From Streptomyces sp. NBC_01264 (GTDB lineage: Bacteria > Actinomycetota > Actinomycetes > Streptomycetales > Streptomycetaceae): a DNA stretch of 64,000 bases. The notes beneath the pieces are model-generated. The model saw only the letters and a list, made by a program, of their open reading frames with translations. It was not told the origin of the DNA and searched no databases. Positions within the stretch are counted from its first letter, which is position 1. Every line of letters starts with the position of its first letter. The stretch lies in the NCBI RefSeq assembly GCF_026340675.1, contig NZ_JAPEOX010000001.1, positions 6,386,001 through 6,450,000 of the forward strand, read 5' to 3'. A program made the translations under genes and the position numbers. This document shows, piece by piece, positions 3,558 through 39,457 of the stretch.

Positions 3558-5246
3558 ATGCGGGTACTTCCGCCGTTGGCGCGCGCCTACGTACTGTGCG
3601 CCGTCCTCGCGGCCTGCTCGTGCATCGCCCCGGCCGTCGCCGGCTCCGCCACACCGTGGCCCTCCGTCGGCCTGCTCTCCGTGCTCTACCTCGGCTGCGA
3701 ACTCGTCAAGGTCTGCCCGCTCATGGGCCGCCGGGTGCCCGAGGGACTCGGCTCCTTCTTCCCGGTGGTGCTGGCCGCCGTGTTCCTCCTGCCGCCGGCC
3801 GCCGCGGCCCTCGTCGCGCTCCCCGGCGGACTCGCCGGGACCGTGACGGCGCGGCCCGCCTGGGTGCGGCGCGTCTGGCACGGGGCGCAGCAGTCCATAG
3901 CCGCCTGGACCGCCGGGCAGGTCTACGGCCTGCTGGGCGGACCCGGGGCGCTGGGCACGGGCTCCTTCGGGGGGGCCGGACCGTCGGGCCCGGAGGAGGG
4001 GATCGCGGGAACGGCCGGACCGGCCGGACCGGCCGCCTGGGTCGCCGACTTCCCCTACGTGATGCTCCCCGCCGCCGCCGCGGCCGTCGCCTTCTGCCTG
4101 GTGCTGGCCGCCCTGGACGGCTGCATCCTGGCCGCCGCCGAACGCCGACCCGCCACCACCGCCTGGCGGGGCCTGCTGACCCGGTCCCTCGCCCCGCACT
4201 GCGTACACGGACTCGCCGGGCTGATGATGGCCGTGATGTGGCGCAGCCCGTACGGACTTCCGGCCGCACTGCTCGTCATGCTGCCGATGTACATCTCCTG
4301 CTGGGTCTTCGCCCAGTACCACCGCGAGCGCGCCGCCCACCAGGCCACCATCCGGGCGCTGGTCCAGGCCGTCGACATCAAGGACCGCTACACGCGCGGC
4401 CACAGCGAGCGGGTCGGACAGGCCTCGGCGATGATCGCCCGCGAACTCGGCATGGGCGAGGAACGCCTCGAAGTCGTCCGCATCGCCGGGATCCTGCACG
4501 ACGTGGGCAAGCTCGGCGTCCCGACCCGGCTGCTGCGCAAAGACGGACCGCTGACCCCCGAAGAGCGCAGGATCATCGAACTCCACCCCGAGTACGGACA
4601 CGAGATGGTGCGCGGCATCGGCTTCCTCGGAGAGGCCCGCGCGGCCATCCTGCACCACCACGAGCGCGTGGACGGCTCCGGCTACCCGTACGGGCTGACC
4701 GGGGAACAGATCCCGGTGCTCGCCCGGGTCGTGGCGGTCGCCGACGCCTTCGACGCCATGACCTCGACCCGCTCGTACAGCAGGGCCCGGCCGGTGCCGG
4801 TCGCCCTCGCCGAGCTGGAGCGGTGCGCGGGGGCCCAGTTCGACCCGGACATGGTGCGGGCGCTGGTCGAGGCGATCGGCCGCCAGGGCTGGCATCCGAA
4901 GGTGACCTCGGACGAGGACCTCCAGGTGATCCCGGCCGGCGCCGGTGCGTCCGCCGGCGAGTCCGCCGCCGGTGCGCAGGGGGCCGTACGGGAGCCCGTG
5001 CCCGCGGGCGCGGCGCTGACCGGACTGCCCGCGCAGGCAGCCCCGGGCACTGGCACGGGCACGGCCGCCGGGACGGCCAAGGCCGCGCCCCAGCCCCGCG
5101 GGGCCGGGAGCACGCTCCCCGGCGCCGGAACCGCGGATCCCTGCCACTGCGTGCCCGGGCCCGCCGCCGAGCCCGGAGCGGCCGGTCAGGGGGCCACGGG
5201 AACCCCGGGCTCCCCGTCGGCGCCCGCGGCGGGAGCCAACGCGTGA
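3558..5246 (+). CDS. Membrane HD-GYP domain phosphohydrolase
   Basis: The N-terminal half (residues about 5-240) has several hydrophobic segments. It is followed by an HD-GYP domain (about 265-435) with HSERVG, the metal motif ILHDVGKLG, the HHHERVDGSGYPYGL block that includes the GYP triplet, and ADAFDAMTS. HD-GYP proteins hydrolyse cyclic di-GMP or related cyclic dinucleotides; intact metal ligands and GYP suggest an active enzyme. A long low-complexity Ala/Gly/Pro tail (about 450-562) is probably disordered. ATG at 3558 follows GGGGGAGGAGAGC, a strong ribosome site. The stop overlaps the GTG of the next HD gene by 4 nt, so the two paralogues are coupled. Substrate is inferred from the family only. 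Confidence 0.88.
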   Translation: MRVLPPLARAYVLCAVLAACSCIAPAVAGSATPWPSVGLLSVLYLGCELVKVCPLMGRRVPEGLGSFFPVVLAAVFLLPPAAAALVALPGGLAGTVTARPAWVRRVWHGAQQSIAAWTAGQVYGLLGGPGALGTGSFGGAGPSGPEEGIAGTAGPAGPAAWVADFPYVMLPAAAAAVAFCLVLAALDGCILAAAERRPATTAWRGLLTRSLAPHCVHGLAGLMMAVMWRSPYGLPAALLVMLPMYISCWVFAQYHRERAAHQATIRALVQAVDIKDRYTRGHSERVGQASAMIARELGMGEERLEVVRIAGILHDVGKLGVPTRLLRKDGPLTPEERRIIELHPEYGHEMVRGIGFLGEARAAILHHHERVDGSGYPYGLTGEQIPVLARVVAVADAFDAMTSTRSYSRARPVPVALAELERCAGAQFDPDMVRALVEAIGRQGWHPKVTSDEDLQVIPAGAGASAGESAAGAQGAVREPVPAGAALTGLPAQAAPGTGTGTAAGTAKAAPQPRGAGSTLPGAGTADPCHCVPGPAAEPGAAGQGATGTPGSPSAPAAGANA

Positions 5247-34733: not shown

Positions 34734-35930
34734 TCACGCCGAGGCGAGCCACAGGTCGGGGCCGAAGACCTCGTAGGTGATGTCCGCGGGCGCCACGCCC
34801 TTGGCGATCAGCTGCTCGCGCGCCGCCCGCATGAAGGGGAGCGGGCCGCAGAGGTAGGCCTTCGTGCCGGGGGCGACCGGGACGGAGGTGAGGTCGAGGC
34901 GGCCTTCGAGGTCGCCGGGTTCGGCGTCGGCCTCGTACCAGAAGTGCGCGGTGGCGTCGGGGAGCTTGCCGGTCAGGGTCCGGTGGCCGGCGCGCAGGGC
35001 GTGGTCGGCGGGGGAGCGGTCGGCGTGCAGGACGGTGACCGGAGCCGCGTGCGCGGTGTCGGCGAGGTGCTCCAGCATCGAGAGCATCGGGGTGCAGCCG
35101 ATGCCGGCCGAGGCCAGGATCACCGGCGCGGCGGAGTCTTGGAGCACGAGGTCGCCGTAGGGGGTGGAGACGCGCAGGGCGTCGCCGGTGCGGACCCGTG
35201 CGTGCAGGTGGTTTGAGACCTCGCCGTCGGGGCCGGCGGCGGCCGGGCCGTGGACCCGCTTGACGGTGATGGAGCGGACCGGTGAGCCGGGGGCGCTGGA
35301 GAGGCTGTACTGGCGGATCTGGCGGGCCCCGTCGGGGAGTTCGACCTGGACGGAGACGTACTGGCCCGGCTTGAAGGAGGGGGCCGGGGCGCCGTCGGCC
35401 GGGGTCAGGTGGAAGGTGGTGCAGTCCGCGGTCTCCTCGACGCGGGCGGCGACCGTCCAGTCGCGCCAGACGTCACCGGCGAGGACCCGCTGCTCGGCGT
35501 AGAGGCGCTCCTCGATGGTGATGAGGGCGTTCGCCATGAGCCAGTAGACCTCGTCCCAGGCCGCGGCGACCTCGGGGGTGACGGCCTCGCCGAGGATCTC
35601 CACGATCGCCTCGAACAGGTGCTTGTGGACGACCGGGTACTGCTCGCGGGTGACGCCGAGGGAGGCGTGCTTGTGGGCGATGCGGCCGAGCATCACGTCG
35701 GGGCGGGTGTCGGGGTGTTCGACCAGGTGGGTGGCGAAGGCGGCTATGGAGCCGGCGAGGGCCTGCTTCTGGAGCCCGGCGTTCTGGTTGCCGCGGTTGA
35801 AGAGGTCGCGGATCAGTTCGGGGTGGGCCGCGAAGAGCTTTTTGTAGAAGAGCTCCGTGATGTCGCCGATGGCCGCGCCCACGGCGGGCAGGGTGGCTCG
35901 TACGGTCGCGGTCGACTTCTCGGAAAGCAT
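34734..35930 (-). CDS. hmp: Flavohaemoprotein (nitric oxide dioxygenase)
   Basis: 398 aa. A globin domain (about 1-140; proximal haem His in VHKHLFEAI, with Tyr in the LFYKKLFAAHPEL helix) is followed by a FAD domain with RQYSLSS and an NAD domain with ASAGIGCTPMLSM. Converts NO and O2 to nitrate using NADH. An NsrR box lies 32-55 bp before the ATG at 35930, and nsrR is the next gene upstream on the same strand, so NO detoxification is self-contained. The N-terminus is Ser/Thr-rich and otherwise standard. Confidence 0.96.
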   Translation of the reverse strand: MLSEKSTATVRATLPAVGAAIGDITELFYKKLFAAHPELIRDLFNRGNQNAGLQKQALAGSIAAFATHLVEHPDTRPDVMLGRIAHKHASLGVTREQYPVVHKHLFEAIVEILGEAVTPEVAAAWDEVYWLMANALITIEERLYAEQRVLAGDVWRDWTVAARVEETADCTTFHLTPADGAPAPSFKPGQYVSVQVELPDGARQIRQYSLSSAPGSPVRSITVKRVHGPAAAGPDGEVSNHLHARVRTGDALRVSTPYGDLVLQDSAAPVILASAGIGCTPMLSMLEHLADTAHAAPVTVLHADRSPADHALRAGHRTLTGKLPDATAHFWYEADAEPGDLEGRLDLTSVPVAPGTKAYLCGPLPFMRAAREQLIAKGVAPADITYEVFGPDLWLASA

Positions 35931-36095: not shown

Positions 36096-36551
36096 TCACG
36101 CAGGTCTTCCGGCCCCCGGCGATCCGCCCGAAATGCCCAGCAGGAGCGGCCCGGTCGGGGCTGCGACCAGGTCGTTCACCGTCAGCGGGTCCAGGGAGGA
36201 GAAAAAGGCCTCCTGGGCCCGGCGCAACGCCCCGCGCAGCACGCACGCGCTCCGCAGCGGGCACGGAACGGTGCCGTCGCAGTCCACGACGTCGCCGGCG
36301 CCCTCCAGCTCGCGGATCACCCCGCCCACCGAGGCGGCGCGCCCGGCGGAGGTCAGGGTGAGGCCGCCGCCGCGTCCGCGGCGCGCTTCGACCAGGCCGA
36401 GATGCTGCAGCTTGGCGACCACTTTGGCGGTGTGGGTGTACGGGACCTCCATGGTCGCCGCCACGTCGCGGGTGGTGGGGAGGTCCTCCTCCGCGACGGC
36501 CAGGCGCATCAGGACGCGCAGGGCGAGGTCGGTGAATCGGGTCAGCCGCAT
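36096..36551 (-). CDS. nsrR: Rrf2-family nitric oxide sensor NsrR
   Basis: 151 aa, 4Fe-4S repressor. Cys91, Cys97 and Cys103 have the 6-6 spacing of S. coelicolor NsrR, where Asp8 of the other subunit is the fourth ligand; Asp8 is present here too (MRLTRFTD). An HTH lies at about 27-55 (TRDVAATMEVPYTHTAKVVAK). NO destroys the cluster and derepresses hmp and nsrR. The ATG at 36551 is chosen because the frame's upstream Met at 36575 lies inside the NsrR box. The gene is upstream of hmp with a 165-bp gap. Confidence 0.94.
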   Translation of the reverse strand: MRLTRFTDLALRVLMRLAVAEEDLPTTRDVAATMEVPYTHTAKVVAKLQHLGLVEARRGRGGGLTLTSAGRAASVGGVIRELEGAGDVVDCDGTVPCPLRSACVLRGALRRAQEAFFSSLDPLTVNDLVAAPTGPLLLGISGGSPGAGRPA

Positions 36552-36565
36552 GGGGTCAGCGTAGA

Positions 36566-36590
36566 AAACTTGCATCTTCCGTGCAAATTT
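36566..36590 (-). promoter_or_regulatory. NsrR box upstream of nsrR
   Basis: AACTTGCAT-N5-GTGCAAATT (plus strand, about 36567-36589) is a good match to the AAnnTGCAT-type NsrR palindrome and starts 15 bp before the nsrR ATG, so it supports autorepression. Confidence 0.8.
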
Positions 36591-36778: not shown

Positions 36779-38185
36779 ATGTCGGTCCAGGCAGGTTCCG
36801 AATCCGAGACTCAGGCACCGCAGCGCAGTCTGGGGACATCGGCCGCGCGGAACTTGGCAACCACGACCAAGTCCGCGCCGCAGATGCAGGAGATCACCTC
36901 GCGGTGGCTCCTGAAGATGCTCCCCTGGGTGTCCGTCCAGGGCGGCACGTACCGCGTCAACCGGCGGCTGAGCTACTCGGTCGGCAACGGCATCGTGGAG
37001 TTCATCAAGACCGGCACGCAGGTGCAGGTGATTCCGGCGGAGCTGGGGGAGCTCCCGGTACTGCGCGACTACGACGACCCCGACGCGCTGGCCGAACTCG
37101 CCGCGCGCTGCCACCAGATCGACTTCGAGCCGGGCCAGGAGCTCACCTCCTTCGGCAGTCCCGCCGACAAGGTGTTCCTGCTCGCGCACGGGCGCATCGA
37201 CCAGATCGGCCCCGGCCCGTACGGTGACGACGCCGTCCTGCAGACCGTCGCCGACGGGGCCTTCTTCGGCGAGGACGCCCTCGTCGACGAGGAGGCCATC
37301 TGGGAGTACACCGCCCGTGCCGCCACCGCTGGCACCGTGCTCGTCCTCTCCCGCCAGGACTTCCAGATCCTCGCCGACCGGGTCGACTCGCTGCGCGCGC
37401 ACCTGGACTCCGTACGGGACCTGCCGGAGCAGCGCACCAACAAGTACGGCGAGGCCGCGATCGACCTCTCCGCCGGCCACCAGGGCGAGGCCGTACTGCC
37501 CGGCACCTTCGTGGACTACGAGGCCCGGCCGCGCGAGTACGAACTCTCCATCGCGCAAACGGTTCTGCGCGTGCACACCCGCGTCGCCGACCTGTACAAC
37601 CAGCCGATGAACCAGACCGAGCAGCAGCTCAGGCTCACGGTCGAGGCGCTGCGCGAGCGCCAGGAGCACGAGATGCTCAACAACCGCGACTTCGGCCTCC
37701 TGCACAACGCCGACTACGACCAGCGCATCCAGTCCCACGACGGGGCGCCCAGCCCCGACGACATGGACCAGCTGCTCAGCATGCGGCGCGGCTCCAAGTT
37801 CTTCCTGGCCCACCCCAAGGCCATCGCCGCCTTCGGGCGCGAGTGCAACAAGCGGGGGCTGTACCCGGAGTCGGTCGAGATCGGCGGGCACCGGGTGCCG
37901 TCCTGGCGCGGGGTCCCGATGTTCCCGTCCAACAAGATCCCGATCAGTGACGCCCGTACGACCTCCATCCTCTGCATGCGCACCGGCGAGGACGAGTCGG
38001 GCGTGATCGGCCTGCACCAGCCCGGGATCCCGGACGAGATCGAGCCGAGCACCTCGGTGCGGTTCATGGGGATCAGCGAGCAGGCGATCATCTCGTACCT
38101 GGTCACCACCTACTTCTCCGCCGCGGTGCTGGTGCCGGACGCGCTCGGTGTCCTGGAGAACGTCGAGATCGCCCGCTGGCGCTGA
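36779..38185 (+). CDS. Family 2B encapsulin shell protein with cyclic-nucleotide-binding domain
   Basis: 468 aa. The N-terminal arm and first shell segment (about 1-100) are interrupted by a cNMP-binding domain (about 104-210) with the phosphate-cassette residues FFGEDALV and the partner Arg in TARAATAG. The HK97-type fold then resumes (about 215-468: [58 protein letters not shown]). This split architecture defines family 2B encapsulins, which assemble into protein nanocompartments. No HTH exists, so it is not a CRP-type regulator. ATG at 36779 has GAAGGGG 7 nt before. The cargo candidate is the next gene, 78 bp downstream. Whether cAMP or cGMP binds is unknown. Confidence 0.92.
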
Positions 38186-38263
38186 CCCGGCCGGCGCGGA
38201 AGCCGGCGCCGGAGCGAGGGCCACCAGGCAGGACGGGACAGGACGGGACGGAGCGCACACGCC

Positions 38264-39310
38264 ATGTCGACCACTGAGGCGATGACCACCAGCGAGGGGC
38301 AGGAAGCCGCCGTCCTGCTGGAGCGGACGAGAGAAACGGTCAACCCGGAACTGCGCCGGACCGTCGAGAGCCTGCCAGGCTCGATGCGGAACGTGGCGAT
38401 GTACCACTTCGGCTGGGAGCACGAGGACGGCACCCCGGCGGAGGGCGCCACGGGCAAGGCCATCCGGCCCGCCCTGGTGCTCGCCGCCGCCCAGGCCCTA
38501 CGGGGGGACGGGGCGGCGGGGGAGGCCGTACGGGGGGCGGTGGCCGTGGAGCTGGCGCACAACTTCACGCTGCTGCACGACGACGTCATCGACAAGGACG
38601 TGCGCCGGCGCGGCCGGCCCACGGCCTGGACGGTCTTCGGGATCTCGGACGCGATCATCACGGGCGACGCCATGATGGCGCTCGCGCTGCGGCTGCTCGC
38701 CGAGGACCCGCATCCGGCCTCGGCGGCGGCCTCGGCGCGGCTCGCCGCTTGCATCGTCGAGCTGTGCGCGGGCCAGCAGGCGGACTGCGCGTTCGAGCAG
38801 CGCCGCAGCGTCTCGCTCGACGAGTGCCTGACGATGGCCACGGCCAAGACCGGAGCCCTGCTGGGCTGCGCGTGCGCGCTCGGCGCGCTGTACGCGGGGG
38901 CCGGCCCGGACGAGGTCGACGCCATGGACGCCTTCGGCCGGGAGGCCGGGCTGGCGTTCCAGCTCATCGACGACCTGATCGGCATCTGGGGGGACCCCGG
39001 CCACACCGGCAAGCCCGCCGGAGCCGATCTGCTGGCCCGCAAGAAGTCCCTCCCGGTCGTGGCCGCCCTCACCTCGGGCACCTCGGCGGGGGAGGAACTG
39101 GCCGAGCTGTACGCGGGTCCCATGACCGGGGACGACGTGGGCAGGGCGGCCGCGGCGGTGGAGCGGGCCGGCGGGCGGGACTGGGCGCAGGCCCATGCCG
39201 CCGACCGGATGGGGCGGGCGGTGCAGCAGCTGTCGCGGGCCGTCCCGGACCTCGGGGCGGCGGGCGGGCTGCTGGCGCTGGCGGAGTTCGTGACGCGGCG
39301 CACGAAGTGA
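38264..39310 (+). CDS. Polyprenyl synthase-like enzyme, encapsulin cargo candidate
   Basis: 348 aa trans-isoprenyl diphosphate synthase fold. The first Asp-rich motif HDDVID (Asp106, Asp107, Asp110) and RRRGRPT are intact. The second motif is DDLIGIWGD (Asp236, Asp237, then Gly240 in place of the usual Asp, with Asp244 nearby). The first 60 residues are longer than needed and probably flexible, a plausible cargo-loading segment. It directly follows the family 2B shell gene and ends in a strong terminator, so the two form an operon. Family 2B encapsulins are known to package polyprenyl transferases or terpene cyclases. Chain length and product cannot be predicted, and no terpene cyclase is seen nearby. 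Confidence 0.9.
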   Translation: MSTTEAMTTSEGQEAAVLLERTRETVNPELRRTVESLPGSMRNVAMYHFGWEHEDGTPAEGATGKAIRPALVLAAAQALRGDGAAGEAVRGAVAVELAHNFTLLHDDVIDKDVRRRGRPTAWTVFGISDAIITGDAMMALALRLLAEDPHPASAAASARLAACIVELCAGQQADCAFEQRRSVSLDECLTMATAKTGALLGCACALGALYAGAGPDEVDAMDAFGREAGLAFQLIDDLIGIWGDPGHTGKPAGADLLARKKSLPVVAALTSGTSAGEELAELYAGPMTGDDVGRAAAAVERAGGRDWAQAHAADRMGRAVQQLSRAVPDLGAAGGLLALAEFVTRRTK

Positions 39311-39347
39311 CCGCGTAGGGGCGAGGGGGACCCCGTCGGCGAAGGGG

Positions 39348-39385
39348 AGGCCTGTTCCGGCACCGCACGGTGCCGGAACGGGCCT
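39348..39385 (+). terminator. Terminator of the encapsulin operon
   Basis: 17-bp stem (39348-39364 with 39369-39385, one G-T pair) and loop GCAC, followed by TTTC, 37 bp after the polyprenyl synthase stop. Confidence 0.88.
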
Positions 39386-39457
39386 TTCTGCGTCGGTGGG
39401 GCAACTCTAGGATCGCTCACGGTTGTTGACGCGTGAGTGATGTGAAGGGTGTGACCC

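Follow-up and report, generated by a model that had tools for sequence, protein, structure and literature searches.

The locus described here is, as judged from its sequence, a family 2B encapsulin gene followed by the gene for a polyprenyl synthase, its putative cargo. It lies within a stretch of 64,000 nucleotides of Streptomyces DNA, termed the window. The system has already been catalogued, and the window copy is an ordinary, typical Streptomyces example: a clean, single-shell representative of a very common system. Its synthase has no disordered tail of the sort to which cargo loading is usually ascribed, which makes the locus a useful test case for the entry of enzymes into shells. The direct results are the gene content of the locus, the families to which its proteins belong, their conserved pairing and the absence of the canonical phosphate-binding Arg from the pocket (features are listed in table 1). 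The pair is probably a family 2B encapsulin operon of the standard single-shell kind, with the synthase enclosed in the shell. Assembly, pore position and encapsulation are extrapolated from solved relatives and published work: the shell protein would form a small icosahedral particle, its cNMP-fold domains facing outwards over the two-fold pores, with the adjacent polyprenyl synthase held inside as cargo. The pores would admit the substrates, IPP and an allylic diphosphate, and release a medium-chain prenyl diphosphate, most likely C20.

Table 1. Features of the encapsulin locus, in window coordinates.
Feature	Position	Strand	Basis
Family 2B encapsulin shell protein, 468 aa	36779..38185	+	NF041163, PF00027, PF19307, PDB match 9bhu
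Shell 10-residue N-arm motif, aa 17-26	36827-36856		
Shell cNMP-fold (CBD) insertion, aa 101-213, W175 replacing phosphate-binding Arg	37079..37417	+	
Shell main HK97 domain, about aa 216-468			
Polyprenyl (isoprenyl diphosphate) synthase, putative cargo, 348 aa, motifs DDVID and DDLIG	38264..39310	+	NF041169, PF00348, AlphaFold, 3nf2
Strong hairpin 3′ of synthase gene	39344..39389	+	Folding of 39311-39420

Both open reading frames are intact and are separated by 78 nt (38186-38263). The shell protein scores 764 bits against the NCBI curated model NF041163, 'family 2B encapsulin shell' (cut-off 400), and covers model positions 1-450 of 450; none of 14 control genomes has a protein above this cut-off. 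A Pfam cNMP_binding domain (PF00027, residues 115-199, 51.4 bits, cut-off 27.5) stands ahead of the main HK97-type SrpI domain (PF19307, residues 216-466, 458.9 bits). The synthase scores 488.2 bits against NF041169, 'family 2 encapsulin cargo, polyprenyl transferase' (cut-off 450), and 191.8 bits against the Pfam polyprenyl synthetase family PF00348, and database relatives of both proteins bear names of the NF041163 and NF041169 type. The original prediction, of a family 2B shell with a cNMP insert and a polyprenyl synthase 78 bp downstream, is thus borne out by reading frames, Pfam and NCBI models alike, including the search against family 2B encapsulin models that it had proposed as a check.

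The shell sequence is homologous to the solved shells 9bhu, 9bje, 9bix and 6x8m, of which 9bhu, titled in the PDB as the S. griseus Family 2B encapsulin shell, is closest (E 1.5e-201, full-length). The AlphaFold model, built on a 17-sequence alignment, has a mean pLDDT of 46.5 and is of very low confidence in its HK97 part, so the assignment of the shell fold rests on homology. The cNMP-fold domain is the more variable part of the protein, with a mean entropy of 0.86 versus 0.34 for the HK97 part. The first diagnostic shell motif reads MRRG in the window and mostly RRRG in orthologues. In the S. lydicus study, Sl-Enc2 (RRRK) assembles alone, whereas Sl-Enc1 (TVWK) does not (PMC12407261), and MRRG/RRRG is nearer to the former.

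The synthase model has a mean pLDDT of 89.9, and its best fold match is 3nf2, a polyprenyl synthetase of S. coelicolor (rmsd 1.6, 44% identity). A long flexible N-terminus had been ascribed to the enzyme, and this did not hold: pLDDT falls below 50 in residues 1-11 only, no in-frame start was found further upstream, and from residue 15 the sequence can be aligned with that of 3nf2, a solved paralogue. The 50-100-residue disordered N-terminal domain described in PMC8346489, which NF041169 does not require, is absent from the synthase. In a 20-sequence alignment, where some longer N-termini may come from start codons placed too far upstream, the region before the conserved core is between about a dozen and some 45 residues long, and that of the window is among the shortest. 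The first Asp-rich motif is DDVID, and DD-IGIWGDP is invariant in 20/20 aligned sequences, the window's included. The second motif had been described as altered; DDLIG was read correctly but is not special to encapsulin cargo, as non-encapsulin paralogues carry DDLLG. Besides 3nf2, three of the five other host-genome synthases read have it, and the remaining two keep DDxxD (the host has seven synthase matches, of which the lowest-scoring, L011, is without a reading). A Phe stands five residues ahead of the first motif of the synthase. In archaeal GGPP synthases a Phe at this position is said to suggest C20, and on this precedent the product is probably C20.

Family 2B shells are nearly ubiquitous in the genus, with a protein above the cut-off in 289 of 295 sampled genomes. 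The NF041169 cut-off is exceeded in 8 of 296 genomes of a sample of the phylum, all eight in the genus. A survey lists 900 polyprenyl-transferase operons, 888 of them in Actinobacteria (PMC8346489). The host genome has two shells above the cut-off, and the second (L152) adjoins a gene for a terpene cyclase that reaches 481 bits on NF041167 (cut-off 400). A methyltransferase-like frame neighbours it, and we read this locus as a 2-MIB operon. Two further host synthases score 410 and 392 bits on NF041169, both under its cut-off of 450; the former (L153) adjoins a squalene-hopene cyclase and HpnH in a hopanoid cluster.

Pairing of the two genes was followed through 80 orthologous loci, defined as those of the closest shells (79 titled Streptomyces and one Actinobacteria bacterium OV450), and the synthase lies downstream of the shell in 75. 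Two of the other five (L068, L102) end at a contig edge; the remaining three (L072, L076 and L119) have an intact shell and no synthase in the available stretch, that is, 3 of the 78 loci with room for one. The genomes of these three hold no other synthase over the NF041169 cut-off, with paralogues reaching 413 bits, and either other cargo or early decay would account for their shells. A further shell of the synthase type, L040, has no synthase within 1.5 kb. Where at least 5.5 kb of downstream sequence was available (n = 71), the synthase is present in 68 loci, a GNAT gene in 50 and a RibD_C-type gene in 37.

The chief rival to the synthase being enclosed is that it acts outside the shell as a co-expressed pathway partner and that the true cargo is something else. 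The synthase yielded no cargo-loading signal, either as motif words in 106 synthases or as disorder, which is confined to residues 1-11: the terpene-cyclase-like words LGT, GPTG and GPSG are absent from the first 110 residues of all 106, a set in which starts were assigned automatically and some frames are incomplete or over-long. The near-absence of a disordered tail, an N-terminal region shared from residue 15 with a non-encapsulin paralogue, and the shells of L072, L076 and L119 that persist without a synthase all fit an enzyme outside the shell. Such an enzyme would not, however, readily explain a pairing seen in 75 of 80 loci or a synthase kept more constantly than the other downstream genes, and the survey treats polyprenyl transferases as cargo (PMC8346489). 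On balance the rival appears rather unlikely, and enclosure of the synthase is preferred. A search of titles in the open PMC literature, which places most subscription papers and preprints outside its scope and so does not imply absence, found none on a purified polyprenyl-synthase encapsulin.

Cargo recognition was also approached from the side of the shell. In every shell class compared, the commonest segments include close variants of the N-arm motif. PMC8346489 gives GPTGLGTSAAR as a conserved motif of geosmin-synthase-like cargo, and this terpene-cyclase cargo motif may mimic the N-arm of the shell. When 112 synthase-type shells were compared with 12 other single-shell and 15 two-component shells, seven positions separated the first group from the second (59 shells being classed on flanks of about 1.5 kb, and a terpene-cyclase neighbour being confirmed for L001/L152 alone among the 12). 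Three of the seven lie in aa 216-468, including E364 at the edge of a luminal loop proposed for loading; the seven form no cluster, and cargo-specific shell residues were rejected as a candidate.

The inserted domain bears on a second question, the proposed control of the enzyme by a cyclic nucleotide. In cyclic-nucleotide-binding domains, a conserved Arg contacts the phosphate of the ligand. W175 of the shell aligns with this Arg of PKG and of the host genome's own Crp-like protein, which keeps it, and the shell domain therefore lacks the phosphate-binding Arg of the CRP/PKA/PKG type. Trp holds the position in 138 of 138 ungapped shells (139 aligned, with one row, L087, gapped; by class 79/80, 31/31, 1/1, 12/12 and 15/15), all of them from Streptomyces except possibly the OV450 record, in named and unnamed sets that may overlap in species. 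The same Trp is present in 9bhu and in the S. lydicus two-component shells. According to PMC12407261, which cites its reference 35, the domain of another family 2B shell has been shown to bind no cyclic nucleotide. Across the Streptomyces shells sampled, the comparison speaks against a cyclic-nucleotide model, and control of the system by such a ligand, as first proposed, is unlikely. That a classical cyclic nucleotide (cAMP or cGMP) acts on the inserted domain to regulate a shell-bound enzyme is very improbable, despite the cNMP fold of the domain and an FGE glutamate position that stays acidic in the 79 ungapped shells of the 80-locus set (E in 44, D in 35), given the uniform Trp and the reported lack of binding.

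The outer domain nevertheless likely has some function, since the cNMP-type domain of EshA is reportedly necessary for its effect on antibiotic production. A speculative and rather improbable scheme is that the cNMP fold has been repurposed: the invariant Trp would mark a pocket that takes some other ligand, such as a prenyl diphosphate or a linear nucleotide. By opening or closing the two-fold pore, the domain would control whether IPP reaches an encapsulated C20 synthase, with no cyclic nucleotide involved. In the same scheme the synthase of this clade would enter by way of its folded body and not a disordered tail.

The shell and synthase genes are presumably co-transcribed, judging from relatives and published work. 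A shared terminator had been placed after the synthase, and a very stable hairpin follows the gene: the stretch 39311-39420, taken whole, folds at -73.7 kcal/mol (z -6.6, with 0 of 200 shuffles equally stable). The terminator scan did not list this hairpin, which has no clear T run. It is the probable end of the two-gene transcript. The absence of a terpene cyclase nearby, also claimed earlier, holds for the six window neighbours scanned with Pfam.

Just upstream of the pair lie a flavohaemoprotein gene and an NsrR-like Rrf2 regulator gene (34734-35930 and 36096-36575 (-)), and an inverted repeat, TTGCA-N7-TGCAA, was noticed by eye at 36570-36586, near the start of the regulator. Of 74 loci in which the shell gene begins after base 4000, 31 have both the flavohaemoprotein and the Rrf2/NsrR-like regulator upstream, 36 have an amidase gene as the neighbour instead, and 7 have another arrangement; control of the locus by NO was rejected, these two genes being upstream in just 31 of 74. 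A second candidate was an antisense RNA within the shell gene, where the Rfam family RF02735 (Sernc350) matches 36818-37317 (-) with 136.6 bits. The same family matches shell genes in all five other loci tested (six matches, other shell types included), and four-fold diversity shows no dip in the matched part (aa 14-180, 0.407; aa 181-340, 0.355; aa 341-468, 0.408; the 0.198 of aa 1-13 comes from six sites only). The antisense RNA was discarded on these grounds, and the Sernc350 family seems, from these matches, to follow the coding sequence of the shell.

A related gene of S. coelicolor gives some view of expression. SCO5249 (eshB), an EshA paralogue, is presumably the orthologue of the window shell. 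It is up-regulated during development (PMC3878966), is named among the genes that AtrA may control negatively (PMC13170358) and appears in a transcriptome table (PMC3610822).

Several known systems can be set beside the window. The S. griseus shell 9bhu is homologous to the window shell over its full length and has the same pocket Trp. We take 9bhu to be EshA, with 2-methylisoborneol synthase as its cargo; this cargo differs from the putative one of the window. The synthase shares its fold with 3nf2, and the second motif DDLLGIWGDP unites 3nf2 with the hopanoid-cluster paralogue L153 of the host; L153 is unlike the window synthase in falling below the NF041169 cut-off and in standing beside a squalene-hopene cyclase and HpnH. 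The two-component shells of S. lydicus, which on our reading of the PDB list are 9bix and 9bje, have the family 2B fold with an E-loop insertion and the same Trp, but in them two shell genes accompany a putative xylulose kinase cargo, whereas the window has one shell gene and a synthase (PMC12407261). A further likeness is to the family 2B and polyprenyl transferase operons of Actinobacteria, which, as described in the survey, combine a cNMP-fold-inserted shell with an adjacent polyprenyl transferase, as the window does (PMC8346489). A terpene cyclase is missing from most of the 900, with 165 having both enzymes, and their transferases begin with a disordered domain of 50-100 residues, in contrast to the roughly 11 disordered residues of the window synthase.
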